Positions 19,891 through 33,688 of a DNA stretch of 64,000 bases are shown here, in pieces (positions within the stretch are counted from its first letter, which is position 1; every line of letters starts with the position of its first letter). Under the pieces are notes generated by a model. It saw nothing but the letters and a program-made list of their open reading frames with translations, had not been told where the DNA came from and searched no databases. Origin of the DNA: Myroides fluvii (GTDB taxonomy: Bacteria > Bacteroidota > Bacteroidia > Flavobacteriales > Flavobacteriaceae); the NCBI RefSeq assembly GCF_009792295.1, contig NZ_CP039934.1:3306501-3370500 (forward strand), in the 5' to 3' direction. The position numbers and the translations under genes were made by a program.

Positions 19891-20934
19891 TTAGAAAGCA
19901 TAATTTATTGCGTCTTCAGTTTTAGATTCAATTTGATCGATTTCCTTATCTTTTTTTGTTAAATCTGTGTACTCATAATCTCCTAAATTTTTACCAGGAG
20001 CGCCTGTATTTACATATCCATTATTATCCTTTTTTGGTGATTGAGGTTCAGAAAGTAAAACAATACGATATCTTGGATTAAAAATTGTTTCATCTTTGGA
20101 ACCATTATTAATTATATAAGATTTATTTTCTTTTGTAAATATTTGAGCGATGTCATTAAGCTTTATTTCTTCTAGATCTTTTTTTTCTAAAGAAATACCA
20201 AACAATTTATAGAATTCTTTAAGTATTTCAAAATTTTCAACCATAGGAGTTTTTGGACCATCTGATCCATCTGGTCCATCTGGTCCACTATTTCCTTTTT
20301 TTCTAATTCTATCAAAAAAATCAAATAATTTATAAAAAGGTATTGCTGTTTCAGTGTGTAAATCAGAAAATTTAACCGTTTTCTGATTGTTAGTAAACGT
20401 ATTAATATTCATAACAGAGCACCCAAATAACTCTTCCGCATCATTAGATTTTTTTAAATTTGGACTATTTGAAGTATAATTGTATAATAAATAAAGAGGT
20501 AGATTACTTCCTAAATTTTTAGAATATTCCTTGAGTAATTCACTTTGTAAACCATTTTTATTATTATGTACAAAACATTTGTAGCTTCCATCCTCTTTAT
20601 TATTTTTATAAACTGTTAGTTTTTTTGCTTGAATAGGGATACTAATATATTGATCTCCTATAGGGAAATCTAAAATTAAATCAGCGCCGTTTGTTTTTTC
20701 GTCTTCACTTTCGAAAATTTTAAAAAATTTTAATTTAGTTTCATCTTCAAATTTATGTAATTCGTATATCAAATTTTCGGTTAAAGTAACTTCTCCCATT
20801 CTTGAAAAATTACTATCTTTTTTGTTATGTACAAAACCAATTCTATTATATACATCTACAGAAACATATTTAATTAGACTTGCTGATGAGTCATTTTTCT
20901 CAGCATCTTTTTTATAATTTATATTTGAAATCAT
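19891..20934 (-). CDS. DUF6615-like protein, candidate PD-(D/E)XK nuclease; last gene of the hsd operon
   Basis: 347 aa. The N-terminal ~110 residues carry MGEVTLTENLIYEL (E54), TNGADLILDF (D85) and IPIQAKKL (Q102-x-K104). That spacing resembles a PD-(D/E)XK fold with a Q-x-K variant and resembles DUF6615 proteins (GAD...QAK). Nuclease activity is inferred, not shown. A short collagen-like linker GPDGPDGSDGP lies near residue 220, encoded by a 9-bp tandem repeat around 20259-20285. The start lies 11 bp after the hsdR stop, so it is very likely co-transcribed with the type I R-M genes. Confidence 0.6.
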   Translation of the reverse strand: MISNINYKKDAEKNDSSASLIKYVSVDVYNRIGFVHNKKDSNFSRMGEVTLTENLIYELHKFEDETKLKFFKIFESEDEKTNGADLILDFPIGDQYISIPIQAKKLTVYKNNKEDGSYKCFVHNNKNGLQSELLKEYSKNLGSNLPLYLLYNYTSNSPNLKKSNDAEELFGCSVMNINTFTNNQKTVKFSDLHTETAIPFYKLFDFFDRIRKKGNSGPDGPDGSDGPKTPMVENFEILKEFYKLFGISLEKKDLEEIKLNDIAQIFTKENKSYIINNGSKDETIFNPRYRIVLLSEPQSPKKDNNGYVNTGAPGKNLGDYEYTDLTKKDKEIDQIESKTEDAINYAF

Positions 20935-20945
20935 TTTATTATTTT

Positions 20946-23900
20946 TTACCTTAAATATCTCTGTGTACCCGATTTAAAATCTTGTTTAAAAAAACTATCT
21001 GTCCATTGTTTAGCAAAATCTAATTGTAATTTTCTCATAGAGAGTGCTACTTGCTCCATAATTTTATCATAAGCTAATTCACGTGTGTAGGTGTCTTGAT
21101 TATTTAAATATTTTGATTCATAATCTGGGTGTTGCTGAATCTTCTCAATAAAAGTTTGAAAAAACTGTCTCTTATCCTCATTTGTTGCATCCCAATCGGC
21201 AAACCAACGTGTATTAAAATCACTAATGATGGTTTCTAATAAATCATTTTCGTCATCTGAATGTGCTCCACGTGGGTTACTATTTGCTGGATCAAGTTGA
21301 GATTCTTCTTTATCTAGAATTAAAGTTTCATTTAATCGTACACGTTCAATCCCGTAAGTAGATAAATCAACACTATTTAATATTTCATCTAATAAATCTG
21401 CTTCAGTTTTTTTGACAATCATTTTAGGAATTAAAAACTTTAAAAACCAATAAAGTTTTTCCCAATTCATATTATCAAATGAGATGATAGCGGCTAATTG
21501 TCCGTAAACTTTTACAAAATGCTTTGCTTTAATTTTTAAATCAGCCTTTGTGTTTTCATCTAATTCTAATGATTTATTAAAGCGATCTTCAACCTTTCCT
21601 AAAATAGGACTTAAATCATCTGCAATTACGCCTTTAAAGAACAGCGTATTAAATTCTTCAACCTCACTCCATTCATATATTCCAGAATCATCTAAGGCAT
21701 CTTTTAAATCATGTAATACGTTTACATCAGTAGCAGTGCTAAGACTTGTAGCAGTATAAAACGGATCAAAAGATGCTTTAATATCGTTACTATCATTAAA
21801 GAAATCAAGAACAAATAAACTCTCTGTACGTTTATTTAATTTATCAGCAGCACGATTTAAACGAGATAAAGCCTGAACACACAAAACTCCTTGTAGCTTT
21901 TTATCTACATACATTGTAGTTAGTTTTGGCTGATCAAATCCAGTTAAATATTTATTAGCTACAACCAATAAACGATATTCATCTGTATTAAATTGATCTT
22001 TAGTTTCTGTTTCAGCAAAACCATTTAATTTTGCTTCAGTAAGTTCATTACCATCAATTGTTTTTTCACCAGAAAAAGCAATGATTATTTTAAACGGGGT
22101 ATCTCGTTCTTTTAAAAGCTGTTTTAATTCATCATAATAACGAATAGCAGATTCAATACTTTGTGTTACTACCATTCCTTTTGCTTTCCCTTTAAGTAGT
22201 TTTTTATTAACCACTTGTTCCATGAAATGGTCAAGCATAATTTCTGCTTTAGCTTTAATTGTACGTTTATCACGTTCTACAAACGCTTTCAGTTTTTTTT
22301 GAGCTTTTTTAGTATTAAACTCTGGATTATCTTCAATTGATTTTTGAAGTTGATAGTAACTACGATACGTAGTATAATTTGCTAATACATCTAAAATAAA
22401 CTTTTCTTCAATAGCTTGTTTCATTGTGTATAAATGAAACGGTTTAAATGAACCATCTTCCTGACGAGTTCCAAAACGTTCTAAAGTGGTATTCTTAGGC
22501 GTAGCAGTAAAAGCAAAATAAGATGCATTATTACGCATTTTACGAGCTTGCATTGAACTAATAATTAAATCTTGAGCATCGACCTCTCCTTCCTCATTGG
22601 TTTCTAATTTACCCAAAACCTGATTCATTTTGTCTGCAGCTGTTCCGCCTTGACTACTATGTGCTTCATCAATAATAATTGCGAAGCGTTTGTCTCCCAT
22701 TTCATCAATATCTTTAACTATATGTGGGAATTTTTGTATAGTTGTAATAATGATACGTTTACCCGATTCTAATGAAAGTTTCAAATCTTTAGAAGAATTA
22801 GCCGCACCAATGATGTTTTTTATATCAGAAAAACTTTTGATATTATCTCTTAATTGTCTATCTAGGATTCTGCGATCGGTTACCACAATTACTGAATCAA
22901 ACATTGGATTTTGATTCTCATCTTCAATTTCTATTAATTGAAAAGCTGCCCAGGTAATCGAATTCGATTTTCCAGAACCTGCCGAATGTTGAATTAAATA
23001 AGTTTTACCAACTCCATTTTCTTTAACATCAGTAATTAAATTTTTAACGACTTCTAACTGATGATATCGAGGAAAAATATAAAACTTTTTAGAAAGTTGA
23101 TCTTTCTCCTTTCCTTCTAACAACATAAAATGTTGAATGATACTTGACCAAGAATTTTTAGAAAAAATTTCTTCCCATAAATATGCTGTTCTGTGCCCAT
23201 TTAGATTGATTGGATTTCCTTTTCCAAAATTATCTCCTTTGTTCAATGGCAAAAAGAAAGTATTCACGCCATCTAATTTAGTGGTCATATAAACTTCATC
23301 CGTATCAACTGCAAAATGTACCAAACAACGCCCAAACTGTAATAATGCTTGATTATTATCGCGTGACTTTTTGTATTGTTCAATACCATGAACCGCAGCT
23401 GTTTGATATGTCCACGGGTTTTTTAATTCCATTGTGGCCAATGAGATTCCATTAACAAAAAGAACCATATCAATTTCTTCGCCTGGATTTATAGAAGAAT
23501 ATCTTAATTGGCGCGTAACTGAAAATTGATTTTTTTCAAAGTTTTCTTTTATAGATTGCGCGCTACTTGCACTTGGAGCTTCATAGAACAAAGTGAAGTG
23601 CGCATTATCAACTTCTAAACCTTTCTTAAGTAATTTTAAAATACCCTCTTTCTTGACTTTACGGTCAAAGCGTTCTAATATTTTTAATTTCCAATCACTA
23701 TAAATTTTAATTTTTTCTAATTCTTTCGGTTGTGTATTTTCAAGAAAGTCCCAAAAACGAAAGGTATCCAATGCGTACTTTTTATCAAAATCTGAAGGAA
23801 ATCCCATATAATAACCAGTGCCCTTCAAATATTGTGCTTGATTTTCTTGCAATGCATCGATAGAAACTTTTTCTTCCTTAAGTTCTTCTAATCTATAGCC

Positions 23901-23957
23901 AGTTAACGATTTTTCGATTAATGATTCTAAAGCTTGTTCGTTATATTGTGTTGTCAT
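20946..23957 (-). CDS. hsdR: Type I restriction endonuclease subunit HsdR
   Basis: 1003 aa, normal length. It is the motor and nuclease subunit that translocates and cuts unmethylated DNA as part of R2M2S. The N-terminal nuclease motif is E161-I-D163 ... E177-L-K179. Walker A is AGSGKS (residues 326-331), DEAH at 430-433, and motif III-like FTATP follows. The C-terminal helical domain contacts HsdM. It overlaps the end of the upstream 1478-aa gene by 17 bp and is followed 11 bp later by the DUF6615-like gene. All key residues are intact, so it is predicted active. Confidence 0.95.
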   Translation of the reverse strand: MTTQYNEQALESLIEKSLTGYRLEELKEEKVSIDALQENQAQYLKGTGYYMGFPSDFDKKYALDTFRFWDFLENTQPKELEKIKIYSDWKLKILERFDRKVKKEGILKLLKKGLEVDNAHFTLFYEAPSASSAQSIKENFEKNQFSVTRQLRYSSINPGEEIDMVLFVNGISLATMELKNPWTYQTAAVHGIEQYKKSRDNNQALLQFGRCLVHFAVDTDEVYMTTKLDGVNTFFLPLNKGDNFGKGNPINLNGHRTAYLWEEIFSKNSWSSIIQHFMLLEGKEKDQLSKKFYIFPRYHQLEVVKNLITDVKENGVGKTYLIQHSAGSGKSNSITWAAFQLIEIEDENQNPMFDSVIVVTDRRILDRQLRDNIKSFSDIKNIIGAANSSKDLKLSLESGKRIIITTIQKFPHIVKDIDEMGDKRFAIIIDEAHSSQGGTAADKMNQVLGKLETNEEGEVDAQDLIISSMQARKMRNNASYFAFTATPKNTTLERFGTRQEDGSFKPFHLYTMKQAIEEKFILDVLANYTTYRSYYQLQKSIEDNPEFNTKKAQKKLKAFVERDKRTIKAKAEIMLDHFMEQVVNKKLLKGKAKGMVVTQSIESAIRYYDELKQLLKERDTPFKIIIAFSGEKTIDGNELTEAKLNGFAETETKDQFNTDEYRLLVVANKYLTGFDQPKLTTMYVDKKLQGVLCVQALSRLNRAADKLNKRTESLFVLDFFNDSNDIKASFDPFYTATSLSTATDVNVLHDLKDALDDSGIYEWSEVEEFNTLFFKGVIADDLSPILGKVEDRFNKSLELDENTKADLKIKAKHFVKVYGQLAAIISFDNMNWEKLYWFLKFLIPKMIVKKTEADLLDEILNSVDLSTYGIERVRLNETLILDKEESQLDPANSNPRGAHSDDENDLLETIISDFNTRWFADWDATNEDKRQFFQTFIEKIQQHPDYESKYLNNQDTYTRELAYDKIMEQVALSMRKLQLDFAKQWTDSFFKQDFKSGTQRYLR

Positions 23958-26900
23958 TGATATCTATCTTAATTTTAACTTTATAATTTGCAGGTGATAA
24001 ATCTCCTAGTTCTCTTATATCCCTTATTGGATATATTTTCAAATCTTTATCAACTAACCAAATCTCATATTGTTCAATATTAGCATCAGCAAACTGTTTT
24101 TCCTCTCTAGATAGTAGGAAGTTATACCCATTAAAATATTTACATTCTACATATTTTACAATATTCAGATCAGTGTCAAAGTACTTTATATCATAATGTA
24201 ACCCTTCGTTGGTTTTTGAAACGTGATCTACATCTTTTGTATTCAACGCCTTATTAAGATAGTTAACAACAATTTTCTCAACATCATTTCCTAGCTCTTT
24301 TTTTCCACTATTTGAAAGTTCACTAGAGGTTTTACCTAACCAAGGTCCAGAATCAAATTTAGTTTCTTGAGAAAGAATAGAACTATTTATAATAACTGAG
24401 AAGTCATTTATACATTCTGGTTCAGTGCTATTAAGTATAGTAAATTCTTTCTTTGTGTTTTCTTTTATTAAAAGCGTATCATTTTTATGACTTTCTAACC
24501 ATTTTCGTATGAAATCTATATTTCCATCAAAATATTTGAGGCTTTCAATCGATAAATTTGATTTTAATAACTGTAATTCATCAAAATTAAAATTAGCATC
24601 AGTATTCAACTGTATAGAATCATAATCTAATTTACTTTCAGAGGTTAAATCAAATTTATAGTCAGGTAATAAAACATATAGTTTATCAACTATATATTTA
24701 TTATAATCTAAAGTATTTTCTTTAATTTCATAATCTAGGGTGATATCCAAAGTTTCGATATCCTTGAGCTGATTCAAAAATATAGACTGATGATCTCTAT
24801 TTTTATTTTTTAATTGATGCCACAATTGATTTTTAACTTCTTTTTTCTTTGTAGCCCAATAACTATTTAATTCTTTAAGAAATAAATTATTAAAAGAAAT
24901 CGGCGTATCACTAATGTTGTTATATGTTTTTAGATTAACTCCTAACACTTCGAAGACATTTCGAATTTTACTTAATTCTTCAATATTTTGAGCTGAGTTG
25001 AAAAGCTCAAATGTATCAAGATTAGGGAATTGAGTACGAATCCAAACATCTAGACTATTTTCATTTGTATCACTAAAGTCAATATCCAAAACTTTAGAAA
25101 TAGATTTCCAAATTGATAAACGAGAACTAATTTCACCAAGTAGAATTAGTGCTTCTTCGTATAATCCGTCAGCTATATTATTTAAATCATATAAATTATC
25201 TTCTTTAGACTGTCTAATTACACTTTCAAAAATCCTTTTTTCTTCCTGAGTATCAAATAATTTCAAAAACAGATCAGATAAATTATCCGCAAATATTTTC
25301 TTGGATTTTAACTCGTCTATTTTAATATTATTAGGAATTTTGAAATAAAAAATATCATCTGCTATTACATAATTAAAGTCTTCAATATAAAAAGGATTAT
25401 TATTTAAGCTACAACTCAAATATGAACATATTTTAATGGAAAGTTTGTTAAGCAATAGGGCTTGATTTTCTTTGACTTTTGAACTCGATATTTTGTCTAA
25501 TCTATGTGCTAAAATAAAAGGTTTTATTTCCTTTATAAAAGCCTCAAATAAGCTCGAAGCCTCTACGTTATCTTTGGTGTCTATGATTTTCAAATCTAAA
25601 TCATTCAAATCTACTAGGCTAAATAATTCAATTGCCGTCATCCCCCCCGATCTAGCTGGATAATATAAAATGGGAAACTCATTGGTTAAATTTTCTGGTA
25701 ACTGTATTCTATCACTATAGTATATCCTTCTACTTTCTTCAACTACAATTGTATTTCCTTTTTTTGCATAAAGTTTTATATCATTTATTTGTTGTTGATT
25801 TTGCTTATAATGTCCTACAAGATTTTTATAAAATACTTGAGCTCCCTTATGATTATTTTTCTCAGATAATTCAATTGTTTTTGATCTTAAATGACCTATA
25901 GAAAGGTCATTAAAATTATCCTTTGCACCAAAAAACTTCAAAATCCTTTCTATTTCTCTTCTTTCTAAACCGCTAGACTCAAGTAGATACTCATAATCTA
26001 CTTTAAAAGGGTTAAACCATTCTTCATCACGTTTTGTAGTGATTAAGTAATCTGAAATATTGAATTTTTGATTAATTTGAAAGAATATGTAGTTCTGAAA
26101 TGAATAAACAATTTTAGTAGTACGATAAAAATAACTTAAGCGCTCTTCATGAGATTTAGTATTTTGAAACCCGTTAAAAATTTCTTTAATTGTTTCATCC
26201 AAACTTAAAAATTGTAATAGCTTACTAATTGTTAACTTATCATTTGACAGAAACCTCTCAAATAACTTTATATCGTATATTTCAAATGAAGGACTGATCA
26301 ATTCACATTTAGAAAGTAGATACGATTTATATGCAGAAGAGACATTATTATTAGTAAGATAAATTACAAAGTTTTTATTTATCCCTAACCAAACTAAAAA
26401 GGACTGAATATGCTCTTTATCACCAGTTAAGCCCAAATCACTAATAGAAGTAATTATATCCTCATCTTTATATAATTCTTCAAATATGGATAAAAATCTC
26501 TTTCTATCCTCAAATTCATCTGAAAGAACAAGTTTTTTAATATCTACAATTTCTCCTTTTACATTCAAACAAGGAATGATTGAATCATATTCTAACTTCG
26601 GATTTTCATCTCTTAGGGAATAGTTATGAAATAAGACTATGTAGAACTCTTTAATAATCTCATTAGAATTCCCTCCATTTTCTAAAAGGTTGTTTGTTTC
26701 GCTAATTATCTTCTTCACAACCACCTGTGGTTCAAAAGAATGTGCATTCGACAATTTAGATAATTTATCGGCTAATGCTCTTGATTTATTATTTTCCTCA
26801 TTAAGGTCTAATGCAATGACCAGTGCGGCAAATAATTCACTTTTAATAAACTTAATACTAGAGTATTTAGGAACTTTCAAGTTTATATTATCATTTGTTT

Positions 26901-28377
26901 TAGAAGTATAAACAAAATCTTTTTTATCAATTAAAACTCCATTATTATCAAGTAATACACTTAACTGTAAACCAGAATAATGAACAATCAATAATACAAT
27001 ATATTGTGCCCTAACACTGTAAGAGCTAATTAAACTTCCTGTTTTTTCTAAAACACTAGCTTTATCATTTATCTCTGATATATAATCAAGAGCTTTAAGA
27101 TCCTCATCACATGGAATTACAATAGAGTTTAAATTACTATCCGTAAGTTTATTTTCATCAATAAAAGATGTTATTACATTATTTAATTTAAATACGTTTT
27201 GTTTATTATTATAGTTAAGAGAGAATGTTGGATAAACCTCTAAATTTTCGAACTCATTATTAACTATTTCTTCATAATCATTAAAAACATGATAAGTTTC
27301 TGTTGCAATAGTTCTATAAGGTAACCAAGACTTTTTATCTTCTTTCTTTAAAATTTCTATTAATCGACAATGAAGTTTAAATAATTTTTTAAAAACGAAA
27401 TCATTAATTGGTGATTCCGTACTATGGTTTCTGTTTTGGTCAAGTTCTAAACTTGCATGTGCTACAAATGGAAGTTCAAAAGGAATTTGGGTTTTAAAAA
27501 AATTATAAAGTACTTTATCACATAAAGATAAGTCCTTTGTAAAAGCTATTTTAACAGAATAGTGCTTAGCATCTAAGCCTTCATATTTACCTAATATTTC
27601 CTCATCAATAACTCCCTCATCTTCTATTATGTAATTTGCTTGATTTCCATGATAAACTACACCTACATCATGCGCTATACTTCTCGAAACTTCTATAACT
27701 TTTTCAAAACCATCTATTATAATGACAACTTTATTGATGTTTTTTAAAAACAATAATGTCATTACACTTATATCTTCTAATTGAAGCTTAATATCTTTTT
27801 CATAATTTTCATCATAATTTATTGATACCGTTGTTGTATAATTATGAGTTGTCTTGAGGTCTTCTATAATTCCACAATTCAACAATGGGATTGGATATAT
27901 ACTAGACTTTAGTCTACGTTTTTCTCTAATTGTATTTAAATCATCTTCAGAGTATTTTAAGGTTTCTAAAAGTACTTCCTTCTTATTAGATTCTTTAAAT
28001 GCAACTACAAAACCATTACTGATTATATTAATTCCTTTTGCCCAGTTTACAATAGAGCGAAACCCCAATCCTTTATTACCAATATAGCCAGAAGAAACCT
28101 TGGATGACAATCCTGGATATAATAATGAGTCATAACCCTCTAAAGAAAATGGATTTCCTCCGATATTGCTTATTTCTAAATAGCAATTTTCAGTATCAAG
28201 ATTTATCACAACTGTATGTGCTCCTTCATCTTCACAATTTTGAAACATCTCCAACAATTGTCTACCATTATAGCCCTTATTTGTGTCTAGTTCTGTTTTG
28301 TAAAGGCTTAAAAGTGACTTTATGTCTGTAAAGCTTTCTAGTCGTTTATTAATAGCATCTTGTACTTTTTGTCTCAT
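23941..28377 (-). CDS. Sacsin-like GHKL ATPase with C-terminal DUF3883, nested in the hsd operon
   Basis: 1478 aa. The N-terminus is a GHKL/Hsp90-type ATPase of the Sacsin kind: the N-box LLEMFQNCEDEGA (residues 41-53) has E43, N47 and D50, and GYIGNKGLGFRSIVNWA (97-113) is the lid/G-rich segment. The next ~1200 residues are helical with no clear motif. The C-terminus (about 1358-1455) is a DUF3883-type, nuclease-like domain with E1367, HYD1396 and YVE1411-C-K1413, the PD-(D/E)XK pattern. It lies 36 bp after hsdS and overlaps hsdR by 17 bp, so it must be co-expressed with the R-M enzyme. A defence role is likely; the mechanism is unknown. Confidence 0.8.
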   Translation of the reverse strand: MRQKVQDAINKRLESFTDIKSLLSLYKTELDTNKGYNGRQLLEMFQNCEDEGAHTVVINLDTENCYLEISNIGGNPFSLEGYDSLLYPGLSSKVSSGYIGNKGLGFRSIVNWAKGINIISNGFVVAFKESNKKEVLLETLKYSEDDLNTIREKRRLKSSIYPIPLLNCGIIEDLKTTHNYTTTVSINYDENYEKDIKLQLEDISVMTLLFLKNINKVVIIIDGFEKVIEVSRSIAHDVGVVYHGNQANYIIEDEGVIDEEILGKYEGLDAKHYSVKIAFTKDLSLCDKVLYNFFKTQIPFELPFVAHASLELDQNRNHSTESPINDFVFKKLFKLHCRLIEILKKEDKKSWLPYRTIATETYHVFNDYEEIVNNEFENLEVYPTFSLNYNNKQNVFKLNNVITSFIDENKLTDSNLNSIVIPCDEDLKALDYISEINDKASVLEKTGSLISSYSVRAQYIVLLIVHYSGLQLSVLLDNNGVLIDKKDFVYTSKTNDNINLKVPKYSSIKFIKSELFAALVIALDLNEENNKSRALADKLSKLSNAHSFEPQVVVKKIISETNNLLENGGNSNEIIKEFYIVLFHNYSLRDENPKLEYDSIIPCLNVKGEIVDIKKLVLSDEFEDRKRFLSIFEELYKDEDIITSISDLGLTGDKEHIQSFLVWLGINKNFVIYLTNNNVSSAYKSYLLSKCELISPSFEIYDIKLFERFLSNDKLTISKLLQFLSLDETIKEIFNGFQNTKSHEERLSYFYRTTKIVYSFQNYIFFQINQKFNISDYLITTKRDEEWFNPFKVDYEYLLESSGLERREIERILKFFGAKDNFNDLSIGHLRSKTIELSEKNNHKGAQVFYKNLVGHYKQNQQQINDIKLYAKKGNTIVVEESRRIYYSDRIQLPENLTNEFPILYYPARSGGMTAIELFSLVDLNDLDLKIIDTKDNVEASSLFEAFIKEIKPFILAHRLDKISSSKVKENQALLLNKLSIKICSYLSCSLNNNPFYIEDFNYVIADDIFYFKIPNNIKIDELKSKKIFADNLSDLFLKLFDTQEEKRIFESVIRQSKEDNLYDLNNIADGLYEEALILLGEISSRLSIWKSISKVLDIDFSDTNENSLDVWIRTQFPNLDTFELFNSAQNIEELSKIRNVFEVLGVNLKTYNNISDTPISFNNLFLKELNSYWATKKKEVKNQLWHQLKNKNRDHQSIFLNQLKDIETLDITLDYEIKENTLDYNKYIVDKLYVLLPDYKFDLTSESKLDYDSIQLNTDANFNFDELQLLKSNLSIESLKYFDGNIDFIRKWLESHKNDTLLIKENTKKEFTILNSTEPECINDFSVIINSSILSQETKFDSGPWLGKTSSELSNSGKKELGNDVEKIVVNYLNKALNTKDVDHVSKTNEGLHYDIKYFDTDLNIVKYVECKYFNGYNFLLSREEKQFADANIEQYEIWLVDKDLKIYPIRDIRELGDLSPANYKVKIKIDINDNTI

Positions 28378-28413: not shown

Positions 28414-29646
28414 CTAAAAAACCTTTACTTTACCTGTAACTACATCGTTAATTAAGCTTTGTTTGTATTCTTTTAGTTTGGTTATTTGCTCTTGCTTTTG
28501 CACAATGGCTTGGTCTATTTTAGATATTACTTCGTCCAAATAAGCAACAATTTGTTCTTGTTCTTGAATTGGGGGAAATGCTAATAAACTATTAGCTATA
28601 TGATTAAAGTTAATAGTTTGTCTAACACCAGAACCTAATAATTTCATATATGAAACATCATATTGATGTAAAAACCATCTGTAAAATTCTTTATTTATTC
28701 CTTTAACATCTTGCAAAACGATATACCCTGAACTTACAACAACATTTATTGCAGAGAGAGCAATTCTTAGACTAATTAAATCATAATTTAAATTTAAAGG
28801 ATTAATTAAGAAATCGCCTTCTAATACTTCTTGATATGAAGCTTTCGTTGATTCAAGAATTTTTTCGTCATTTTTATAAATAACTTTACCAAAACTTATT
28901 GACCCAGCCGATAAAGTGGAATTTAATGTTTTAGGCTTCTCTCTAAAAATATGTTTAAGTTTAACTATTTCCCAATGCTCAGGAATTTCACCAATCCATT
29001 CTACACCAGAATCTTTTGTTGGAGCACTAGTATCAAAACCTTTGGTAACAGCTTGATGTATTTTGGCTTGGCGCAGTTCTTTCAGCTTTTCTATTTGTTG
29101 CTCTTTGGTTTGCACTAAGGCTTCAATTTTAGCTATTTTTTCATCTAAGAAACTGGCAATGGCTTCTTGTTCTTGGATTGGGGGAAATGCTAATAAACTA
29201 TTAGCTATATGATTAAAGTTAATAGTTTGTCTAACACCAGAACCTAATAATTTCATATATGAAACATCATATTGATGTAAAAACCATCTGTAAAATTCTT
29301 TATTTATTCCTTTAACATCTTGCAAAACGATATACCCTGAACTTACAACAACATTTATTGCAGAGAGAGCAATCCTTAGACTAATTAAATCATAATTTAA
29401 ATTTAAAGGATTAATTAAGAAATCACCTTCTAATACTTCTTGATATGAAGCTTTCGTTGATTCAAGAATTTTTTCGTCATTTTTATAAATAACTTTACCA
29501 AAACTTATTGACCCAGCCGATAAAGTGGAATTTAATGTTTTAGGCTTCTCTCTAAAAATATGTTTAAGTTTAACTATTTCCCAATGCTCAGGGACATTTC
29601 CAATCCAGTCAATGCCGCTATCTTTATAGTGTTTGTACTTTTGCAT
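28414..29646 (-). CDS. hsdS: Type I specificity subunit HsdS with two identical target-recognition domains
   Basis: 410 aa. It directs the type I enzyme to its bipartite DNA site. The layout is: N-terminal KDSGIDWIGNVPEHW; TRD1 about residues 20-157; a central coiled coil (IAKIEALVQTKEQQIEKL); TRD2 about 223-360; and a C-terminal coiled coil (ISKIDQAIVQKQEQITKL). TRD1 and TRD2 are identical in amino-acid sequence (offset 203 residues) from EHWEIVKLKH to FPPIQEQE. Most HsdS have different TRDs and an asymmetric site; this one should read the same half-site twice. It starts 2 bp after hsdM. Confidence 0.93.
   Translation of the reverse strand: MQKYKHYKDSGIDWIGNVPEHWEIVKLKHIFREKPKTLNSTLSAGSISFGKVIYKNDEKILESTKASYQEVLEGDFLINPLNLNYDLISLRIALSAINVVVSSGYIVLQDVKGINKEFYRWFLHQYDVSYMKLLGSGVRQTINFNHIANSLLAFPPIQEQEAIASFLDEKIAKIEALVQTKEQQIEKLKELRQAKIHQAVTKGFDTSAPTKDSGVEWIGEIPEHWEIVKLKHIFREKPKTLNSTLSAGSISFGKVIYKNDEKILESTKASYQEVLEGDFLINPLNLNYDLISLRIALSAINVVVSSGYIVLQDVKGINKEFYRWFLHQYDVSYMKLLGSGVRQTINFNHIANSLLAFPPIQEQEQIVAYLDEVISKIDQAIVQKQEQITKLKEYKQSLINDVVTGKVKVF
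28571..28983. repeat. TRD2-coding direct repeat inside hsdS
   Basis: A 413-bp block repeated at 29180-29592 (offset 609 bp) with only two differences, both synonymous (CAATTC versus CAATCC; AATCGC versus AATCAC). Confidence 0.95.
29180..29592. repeat. TRD1-coding direct repeat inside hsdS
   Basis: The partner of 28571-28983. The two silent differences show that the copies have existed separately for some time or that conversion is incomplete. Confidence 0.95.
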
Positions 29647-29648
29647 GA

Positions 29649-31988
29649 TTAGAATTTAAGAATTTCACTTAATAAACCATCACCTTGTTCTTCTAAAGCT
29701 AATAAATCGGTTTTAATAGCTTTAATACTTCGCAACGGTGTATGCTGGTAGAAGTATTTGTTGAACGAAATTTCGTAACCAATTTTCACCGAATCTAAAT
29801 TAATCCAAGCTTCATCTACGTACGGAATTACTTCACGATTGAAATACTTTAAGATTTCTTCGTTTAACGAAATTTGTTCGCTATCACGTAGATCGGTTTC
29901 TGTTTCGTAGGTGACAAATTCCCCCACTTTTGTAGTTGGATAATAACCAAAAAATGATAAGTCATTTTCTTTACATCCTAATCTATCTAATAATTGAGTT
30001 AATTTATCTCCTGAAAGCTTTTCAACTTTCTTAACTACTTTTTCTGCTTGTGCATCGTAGGTAGAAATGGCATTTAAAATAACTTTCTTATCTGTTGCTG
30101 AAAGATTCAATTTATTTTTCTTTACAACATCATCTATTAAAGCAGAAAATGCATTGAAGTTTGTAAATACTTCATTACCGATTAACTTCCAAAGCGATTG
30201 AGCTGCATCATAAATTGCCTTTGGTTTTTCCCAAGTTACTTTATCAACTAATCTATTAAGCTGTTTTTTATTTAAGTCCCAATCTTCTTTTTCGGCACGT
30301 TTATAAATCGCTGTTTCCTCAGCAACTAAATCTTCGTAAATAGCTTCTCCATAAGTTTCATAAAGCATTTTCATAGGCGTAGCCAACGATTTTTCGAAAC
30401 GTAAATCAGCCATTGCTTCTGCTGTAAATTGTGAACGTAAACGTTTAGGTCGTTCAATATTTACTTTATAATAACCAAAATCGCTATTTTTAAAACGTTT
30501 TATTTTAAGATCTGATTCTTCTGTGCTTTTAGAAAGATTATTTAAATATGCTTTAGCTATTTCTTGAATTTGTTGACTTGTTAATTCACAATTTTTTAAA
30601 CCTAAATTTTTTCTTAGTTTTTGATACAGGTTGTTAGCATCTAATAACTGAACATACCCTTGGCGGTCTTTAGGTTTATTGTTATTTAATAACCAGATAT
30701 AAGTTGTAATACCTGTATTGTAAAACATATTATTAGGTAATTGTACAATAGCATCTAATAAATCGTTTTCAATAATATAACGACGAATGTTAGATTCTCC
30801 TGAACCAGCATCACCTGTAAATAAAGATGAACCGTTATGAACTGATGCAATTTTACTTCCTACCTTATTAGCAGAGGCAGGTTTCATTTTATCAACCATT
30901 TCCATCAAAAACAACAACTGTCCGTCAGAAGTTCTTGGTGTAGCATCAACAGTTTCCCAGTTTCCCCAATAATCTTTTAATTTAAATTGGAAGCGGCTGT
31001 CAATAACTTCCTTTCCGTCTTTTATATATTTAACTTCTGTTGCCCAAGATTTTCCGTACGGAGGATTAGATAACATAAAGTCGAATTTCATATTTGAGAA
31101 TTCATTGGTGCTCAAAGTAGAACCTACACGAATGTTTTCAGGATCTTTACCTTTAATCATCATATCTGATTTACAGATAGCGTAGGTTTCATCATTGATT
31201 TCTTTTCCATACAAATACACGTCACCCGCATATTTAATATGAGATTCTTCTACCAAATAATTTTCACTTTCAGTTAGCATTCCACCACTTCCACAAGCTG
31301 GATCATAAATGGTAATAATGCTTGGTAAAGAATTTTTTAAAGGTTCAAAGACCAAAGTAGTCATTAACTGAATTACTTCACGTGGCGTAAAGTGCTCGCC
31401 AGCTTCTTCGTTATTTTCTTCGTTAAATTTTCGAATTAACTCTTCAAAAACATAACCCATTCCTAAATTTGATAAGGCTGGAAGCATTCTTCCTTCTGGA
31501 TCATTCTTTTCAAAAGGAGTTAAATTAATATATGGTGAAGTGAATTTCTCTAGCACATCCAGTAAAACATCTTTACTTGCCATGTGTTGAATTTGAGAAG
31601 ATAACTTAAACTTTTCTATGATTTCCTTTACATTCGAAGAAAATCCGTTTAAGTATTCTTCGAAATTAGCTACTAATTTTTGTTGCGAATTTGTTGCCGT
31701 ACCACGCAATTTTTCCATGGTCCAAGTTGAAGTATTATAAAATACATAACCTGTGGAAGATTCAAGTCCTTTAGGATCGAGTTCAATCTGATCTAAATCT
31801 TCTCTTTGAAAACGAACTTCTTCTAGTACTTTATCCTTTGTTGGTTCTAATAGCGCATCAATACGGCGTAAAACTACAAAAGGTAAAATAATATCGCGGT
31901 ACTTACCGCGTACGTAAACATCTCTTAAACAATCATCGGCTATAGACCAGATGAAACTAACTAATTTATTATGGGAATTATGAGTCAT
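29649..31988 (-). CDS. hsdM: Type I DNA adenine methyltransferase subunit HsdM
   Basis: 779 aa, longer than classic ~500-aa HsdM because of a C-terminal extension (about residues 540-779). The extension carries charged helices and is common in this subgroup. It methylates N6-adenine in the HsdS-specified site. The N-terminal HsdM_N helical domain is about residues 10-150. The SAM motif is DPACGSGG (229-236), and the catalytic motif NPPY (308-311) is intact. It is the first gene of the operon hsdM-hsdS-ATPase-hsdR-DUF6615-like. The terminator at 32368-32414 separates it from the XRE gene, so it needs a promoter within 31989-32367. Confidence 0.95.
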   Translation of the reverse strand: MTHNSHNKLVSFIWSIADDCLRDVYVRGKYRDIILPFVVLRRIDALLEPTKDKVLEEVRFQREDLDQIELDPKGLESSTGYVFYNTSTWTMEKLRGTATNSQQKLVANFEEYLNGFSSNVKEIIEKFKLSSQIQHMASKDVLLDVLEKFTSPYINLTPFEKNDPEGRMLPALSNLGMGYVFEELIRKFNEENNEEAGEHFTPREVIQLMTTLVFEPLKNSLPSIITIYDPACGSGGMLTESENYLVEESHIKYAGDVYLYGKEINDETYAICKSDMMIKGKDPENIRVGSTLSTNEFSNMKFDFMLSNPPYGKSWATEVKYIKDGKEVIDSRFQFKLKDYWGNWETVDATPRTSDGQLLFLMEMVDKMKPASANKVGSKIASVHNGSSLFTGDAGSGESNIRRYIIENDLLDAIVQLPNNMFYNTGITTYIWLLNNNKPKDRQGYVQLLDANNLYQKLRKNLGLKNCELTSQQIQEIAKAYLNNLSKSTEESDLKIKRFKNSDFGYYKVNIERPKRLRSQFTAEAMADLRFEKSLATPMKMLYETYGEAIYEDLVAEETAIYKRAEKEDWDLNKKQLNRLVDKVTWEKPKAIYDAAQSLWKLIGNEVFTNFNAFSALIDDVVKKNKLNLSATDKKVILNAISTYDAQAEKVVKKVEKLSGDKLTQLLDRLGCKENDLSFFGYYPTTKVGEFVTYETETDLRDSEQISLNEEILKYFNREVIPYVDEAWINLDSVKIGYEISFNKYFYQHTPLRSIKAIKTDLLALEEQGDGLLSEILKF

Positions 31989-32367: not shown

Positions 32368-32414
32368 ATTAAATAAAAGAGCACTGTTTTTTGAACAGTG
32401 CTCTTTTATTTAAT
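32368..32414 (-). terminator. Very long terminator stem overlapping the XRE gene stop
   Basis: A perfect 21-bp stem (ATTAAATAAAAGAGCACTGTT and its complement) with a 5-nt loop. The stop codon of the 88-aa regulator (32406-32408) lies inside the stem. It separates the regulator transcript from hsdM. Confidence 0.9.
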
Positions 32415-32672
32415 TTCAAAATTCTTTATAAAAATAGGATCTTTAAAAAAATCTGTTAGACTTATTTTCATTGCATCACAGAAATCAGACAAGGTATAAA
32501 TCGTTATTCCACGATTCTCACCTAGATTTGTCCATCGATTAATAGCCTGTCTATCTTTTTCAGAAAGATTTGCTAACTCAACTTTCGTCAAGTTCTTTTC
32601 TTTAATTAGAAAATTAATCCTACTCTTAATCTTGTCACGTAATTCTTTATCTCTATCCTTTAATTTCGCCAT
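32406..32672 (-). CDS. Small XRE-family regulator upstream of the type I R-M operon
   Basis: 88 aa. The HTH spans about residues 20-65 (LIKEKNLTKVELANLSEKD...INRW...ITIYTLSDFCDAMKISLTDFF), the typical Cro/C1 pattern ending in SLTDFF. Its size and position resemble R-M controller (C) proteins, but control of hsdM is inference. A perfect 11-bp inverted repeat with a 2-nt spacer lies 31 bp upstream of the start (32703-32726) and is a likely autoregulatory operator. The gene ends in its own strong terminator. Confidence 0.8.
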   Translation of the reverse strand: MAKLKDRDKELRDKIKSRINFLIKEKNLTKVELANLSEKDRQAINRWTNLGENRGITIYTLSDFCDAMKISLTDFFKDPIFIKNFEIK

Positions 32673-33305: not shown

Positions 33306-33650
33306 TTACTCAATAATGCCTAATATTTCATTTAATGGAAATTCGTTATTAGAATATTCCTCTAGCTGTTTAAAAAAACTAGATAGGCTAATATTCTCAT
33401 AATGTAATATCACGTATAAAACTGATAGAGGAATATTATATCCCTCCTCTCTTACAAGCTTTTGTATGGTTGAATGAGAAATACCGCATTTAGCTTGATA
33501 TTTTCTTTGCGACACCTTATTATTTTCCTCATCTGTACTAAACTTATAAATATATTTTTGAGTAATAAAATTGCATACAAGTTTATTAGCAAATTTAAAT
33601 AAATCTTTATTATCAACTTTATTTTTAATATTCTGTTGCTCTTTATCCAT
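33306..33650 (-). CDS. XRE-family transcriptional regulator
   Basis: 114 aa from the ATG at 33648-33650 (MDKEQQNIKNK). A longer frame from TTG at 33686 exists but would run up to the palindrome. The HTH is about residues 55-100 (VSQRKYQAKCGISHSTIQKLV ... LYVILHYENISLSSFF), the Cro/C1 layout seen in the 88-aa regulator. The 13-bp-arm palindrome at 33689-33716 lies 38 bp upstream of the ATG. Target genes are unknown; autoregulation and control of the island are plausible. Confidence 0.75.
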   Translation of the reverse strand: MDKEQQNIKNKVDNKDLFKFANKLVCNFITQKYIYKFSTDEENNKVSQRKYQAKCGISHSTIQKLVREEGYNIPLSVLYVILHYENISLSSFFKQLEEYSNNEFPLNEILGIIE

Positions 33651-33688
33651 AATAGTATATTTTTTCAAAAGAGCACTTTTTTTCAAAC

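Follow-up and report, generated by a model that had tools for sequence, protein, structure and literature searches.

The hsd locus and the repeat within hsdS

The window analyzed here is a stretch of 64,000 nucleotides from the Myroides fluvii genome (NCBI RefSeq assembly GCF_009792295.1, contig NZ_CP039934.1, positions 3,306,501 to 3,370,500), an assembly consisting of one contig of 3,766,904 bases. The window contains a Type I hsd locus whose specificity gene, hsdS, encodes the same target-recognition domain (TRD) twice in a single chain (Table 1; positions are those of the window). Alignment of hsdS with itself gives an ungapped match over 429 bp at an offset of 609 nt with three mismatches, all of them synonymous and located in codons for Gly (29425/28816), Arg (29374/28765) and Ile (29176/28567). 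The third of these falls at the 3′ edge of the repeat, within the conserved motif PPIQEQE. The two encoded TRDs are identical at 143 of 143 residues. A first-pass annotation of the window had described 413-bp blocks (29180-29592 and 28571-28983) with two silent differences and identical protein sequence; this description was right, and its blocks are contained in the longer repeat reported here.

Table 1. Features of the hsd locus
Feature	Position in window	Strand	Basis
hsdR, 1003 aa, nuclease motif (D...ELK), Walker A, DEAH, TAT	20946..23957	-	Open reading frame (ORF), Pfam, motif check
TmtA-like gene, NO VEIN C-terminal domain, between hsdS and hsdR	23941..28377	-	ORF, Pfam, PADLOC
hsdS, Type I specificity subunit, 410 aa, two identical TRDs	28414..29646	-	ORF, Pfam, PADLOC, AlphaFold2 (AF2) model
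TRD2 copy of 429-bp direct repeat, residues 222-364, 3 synonymous differences	28555..28983	-	Self-alignment of gene
Central conserved region between TRDs, residues 162-221, not repeated	28984..29163	-	Sequence comparison and model
TRD1 copy of 429-bp direct repeat, residues 19-161	29164..29592	-	Self-alignment of gene
hsdM, 779 aa, motifs DPACGSG and NPPY	29649..31988	-	ORF, Pfam, motif check

The hsdS product matches Pfam Methylase_S (PF01420; E = 9.9e-15) in two stretches and is called Specificity_I by PADLOC. Its AF2 model has a mean predicted local distance difference test (pLDDT) score of 90.0 and shows long helices at residues 157-202 and 360-403, with most of the first contained in the central region. 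The two Methylase_S TRDs and the conserved helices that separate them are those of a Type I HsdS, and the overall fold of the model matches solved HsdS chains. With two TRDs in one open frame, the protein also differs from half-HsdS subunits of the NgoAV kind, which carry one TRD per chain. The partner genes hsdM and hsdR both keep their catalytic motifs, as the first-pass annotation had stated. A DNA search of the whole genome returned exactly the two copies of the TRD repeat and no third, and a PF01420 search located one other HsdS gene, approximately 350 kb from hsdS. On these two grounds a phase-variable shuffling locus was rejected as far as extra copies are concerned; recombinases nearby were not searched for.

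Relatives of HsdS and the origin of its second TRD

HsdS-like ORFs of 300-900 aa were collected from fetched loci by an iterated profile search, the 300-aa limit excluding half-HsdS proteins. Omission beforehand of 31 of the 242 loci (the 27 short DNA-match loci L079-L105 plus four more for the gene itself) left 211, which yielded 198 distinct ORFs, the M. fluvii HsdS included. Sampling was not random: a similarity search with this HsdS supplied 52 loci, searches of the M. fluvii genome and searches based on HsdM, TRD DNA and Pfam supplied others, and 80 of the sampled loci are further matches from two of these latter searches, mostly ranked high. The M. fluvii HsdS is 87% identical to itself over 194 aa, flanks included, whereas the best internal identity in the other 197 ORFs is at most 52%, a maximum found over 66 aa. 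An internal alignment of at least 100 aa is present in 153 ORFs, and among these the M. fluvii HsdS alone reaches at least 50% identity. Because the other 197 ORFs go no higher, the identity of its TRDs lies beyond chance.

Protein relatives were taken as the 119 others among the best 120 of 7,970 matches, ranked by similarity to the symmetric query. Four of these, all of source lgn (P0006, P0007, P0016 and P0020; longest contigs 4,981 to 10,736 bases), share the backbone of the M. fluvii protein, with 50-53 of 60 residues identical in the central region and 38-41 of 46 in the C-terminal tail. Their TRD1 is also that of M. fluvii (130/143, 91%), but their TRD2s match its TRD at only 33-44 of 143 positions and differ from one another in sequence. 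The TRD thus stands in position 1 only in the four relatives and in both positions here, as expected for domain movement (DOMO) within hsdS. At the TRD edges, where flanking DNA repeats could guide such movement, the motifs PEHWE and PPIQEQE are shared, but in relatives the flanks of the two positions resemble each other only in part. Since the four same-backbone relatives keep TRD1 but carry different TRD2s, the simplest account, and on sequence comparison the most likely one, is replacement of TRD2 by a copy of TRD1 from within the gene. The direction of copying, from position 1 to position 2, is readable from these relatives because they have a common backbone, and the duplication or gene conversion between halves proposed by the first-pass annotation is borne out by them. 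A further comparison is provided by the locus L010, from a Faecalibacter macacae record, which has the highest HsdM identity among the compared loci other than M. fluvii itself (83%; HsdR 74%). Its HsdS agrees with the M. fluvii protein in the central region (50/60) and C-terminal tail (41/46), and both of its TRDs are different. At the right edge of position 2, the final 24 nt of the comparison are the same in L010 and M. fluvii, consistent with a copied block whose end lies in the PPIQEQE motif.

Perfectly repeated TRDs were found in three of the 119 relatives, as an identical run of 155 aa in P0019 and of 166 aa in each of P0022 and P0025. The latter two proteins differ at 23 positions, 11 outside the repeat and 12 within it; those within form six pairs in which both copies carry the change, and such paired changes are the pattern predicted by concerted evolution. 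Single-TRD forms were also encountered. A search with the first 207 residues of HsdS returned 185 shorter relatives, and among the best 120, which were examined, 38 have a length of 185-260 aa and cover the TRD. Nine of the 38 end in an HsdS-type tail as judged by a simple pattern, three of which (P0155, P0181 and P0213) begin late and may be incomplete; P0175, with 212 aa and a longest contig of 63,350 bases, has the appearance of a complete half-HsdS. P0186 (215 aa) corresponds to P0022 minus one 203-residue unit with 2 mismatches; aligned instead with stretches of equal span from the N and C termini of P0022, it shows 20 and 19, respectively. The repeat unit of the M. fluvii gene is likewise 203 codons (609 bp), and loss of one unit would therefore be in frame and leave 207 aa. 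P0022, P0025 and P0186 lie on contigs of 2,508, 3,877 and 1,100 bases, and their perfect identity and deletion form may reflect an assembler that merged or skipped repeats.

These relatives raise the possibility, which we regard as tentative and on balance doubtful, that symmetric HsdS proteins are recurrent and self-maintaining, with gene conversion keeping the TRDs identical and recombination between the same direct repeats deleting one unit in frame to give a dimerizing half-HsdS that reads the same palindrome. If so, the fused and half forms could be converted genetically into one another with no change of specificity and would represent a live intermediate in models in which Type I enzymes arise by fusion of half subunits. 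Separately, three HsdS-like proteins of 628-639 aa (P0026, P0038 and P0086) contain internal repeats of 44-71% identity over 111-201 aa and possibly three TRDs. A preference of the TRD for a partner of its own class was also considered; in 20 of the 119 relatives both halves are at least 55% identical to the M. fluvii TRD, but the ranking behind this figure is biased by the symmetric query, and nothing was drawn from it.

Predicted recognition of a palindromic site

Within the HsdS fold, antiparallel helices hold the two TRDs in opposite orientations. Because of this arrangement, two copies of one TRD would be expected to read one half-site on each strand. Methylation and restriction by the complex would then be directed at a palindromic bipartite site composed of a half-site, an N-spacer and the reverse complement of the half-site; a palindromic bipartite motif had also been predicted by the first-pass annotation. 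The two-fold reading, taken from the known family, is inferred, as are the activity of the enzyme and its palindromic site. We assign a probability of roughly 0.82 to this interpretation as a whole, namely an HsdS in which TRD1 was copied over TRD2 and which, with its intact partners, is predicted to recognize a palindromic bipartite site. According to work on Helicobacter pylori, a TRD that has moved to the other position reads the reverse complement (PMC3983042).

Several points weigh against this interpretation. Foldseek TM-scores of the model are modest (0.68 to 5ybb_D and 0.48 to 1yf2_A), so the placing of the two HsdS halves in it is not firm. No published motif was found for any member of this TRD class in the open-licence literature, which included Haemophilus influenzae HsdS motifs and Flavobacterium methylomes. 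The all-synonymous differences are weak evidence of constraint, as three random transitions would all be synonymous with a chance of 0.042, three random changes of any kind with 0.008, and two of two transitions with 0.12; selection for TRD identity, once considered from the silent differences, was dropped given so few changes. In addition, an engineered BsaXI subunit with a duplicated TRD had partial activity and irregular cut sites (PMC9159934). The same partial activity, together with the single occurrence among the 198 sampled ORFs, would suit a protein that is made but is inactive or a poor enzyme, the duplication being a dead-end by-product of recombination. We consider this quite unlikely, given the open frame, the HsdM and HsdR motifs, the lack of nonsynonymous change between the copies and the existence of other perfectly repeated proteins.

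A donor other than TRD1 of the same gene also has to be weighed. This TRD class does occur in position 2 of other HsdS proteins (e.g., P0027 and P0065, at 97/143 and 104/143), and TRD movement between loci has been reported in H. pylori (PMC3077401), so that TRD2 could have come from another HsdS gene, allelic or horizontal. This origin appears unlikely, as the DNA search found no other copy of the TRD in the genome, in 397 family genomes the long DNA matches ranking next are only 73% and 71% identical, and C-terminal halves among the 119 relatives are at most 73% identical to the M. fluvii TRD. Plasmid records matching hsdS were set aside: there are 18, with 69-80% identity among the matches listed, and no single place covers more than 17% of the gene. 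Far less probable still is an error of assembly or consensus hiding a true gene with a different TRD2 or a single TRD. The 429-bp repeat is longer than short reads, but the genome is in one contig, the unique flanks of each copy match the position-1 and position-2 flanks of relatives, and three base substitutions tell the copies apart, the last being an argument against a pure artifact that the first-pass annotation had already made from its silent differences.

Deletion between the repeats would produce a form with one copy of this TRD, and the fused and single-TRD forms would therefore offer a natural test of the effect of fusion on assembly and restriction. The selective advantage of fusing two TRDs in one chain is left as a suggestion in a review (PMC3874165).

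Neighboring genes and comparison with known systems

The TmtA-like gene encodes a 1478-aa product (PADLOC E = 7.1e-237), and its last 17 bp are shared with the start of hsdR, which has the same orientation. In L010 and L013, hsdR lies within approximately 100 bp after hsdS and no TmtA match is listed, which suggests that the gene is a second likely defense gene inserted into the hsd operon. Near-full-profile TmtA matches are found in 3 of 199 genus genomes, M. fluvii included; the other two have no HsdS, HsdM or HsdR match within the fetched flanks of approximately 1.5 kb. Two small ORFs upstream of hsdM (32406-32672 and 33306-33686, minus strand; 88 and 126 aa) resemble helix-turn-helix regulators by eye, and a 347-aa ORF (19891-20934, minus strand) follows hsdR by 11 bp on the same strand.

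The literature already contains specificity subunits that carry one TRD in both positions, for Type I (PMC8597746) and Type IIG (PMC3077401) systems, and the novelty implied by the first-pass annotation is not supported. A close likeness is an HsdS of Group A Streptococcus (S. pyogenes) in which TRD_F occupies both positions (F/F), a form reported from four emm types (PMC8597746). This too is a Type I subunit with one TRD allele in positions 1 and 2, but the TRD and the host are different; Table 3 of that paper gives motifs for 15 strains, none of them palindromic, and thus does not demonstrate the F/F site. In the H. pylori allele HPV225_1544 a single TRD sequence likewise occupies both positions, which was ascribed to recombination at flanking repeats, but the allele is Type IIG; single-TRD genes were also observed in that work (PMC3077401). 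Passages of PMC5608340, PMC13335696, PMC10423294, PMC5399793 and PMC12429846 describe no individual HsdS that combines identical TRDs with a measured motif, although PMC5399793 reports near-identical TRDs in the first and second positions of different Staphylococcus aureus subunits.

Symmetric recognition is documented for related architectures. M.BstXI, which consists of M plus S and is placed among Type I relatives, has two TRDs reading one half-site and a symmetric overall site (PMC3874165), but its TRDs are similar rather than identical. The engineered 2xTRD1 BsaXI S subunit discussed above, with the layout TRD1-CR1-TRD1-CR2, recognizes the symmetric site AC N5 GT (PMC9159934); it shares the duplicated TRD in one S subunit, but is a Type IIB enzyme. 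Two copies of one TRD also produce palindromic bipartite sites in the EcoR124I delta50 and EcoDXXI truncations and in natural NgoAV (PMC3874165). EcoR124INT, an active methyltransferase also studied as an endonuclease, recognizes GAAN7TTC (PMC3320862), and the half-HsdS of S. aureus CC398 recognizes ACCN5GGT (PMC6158711). An unassigned palindromic Type I-like motif, RGAN7TCY, is listed for H. pylori F32 (PMC3983042, Table 6), and an identical-TRD HsdS or a half-HsdS could explain it. In half-HsdS systems the two TRDs are on separate chains, one each, whereas the M. fluvii HsdS carries both in one chain. It is a natural full-length Type I specificity subunit predicted to read a palindrome, a property best known from half-HsdS and Type II enzymes.
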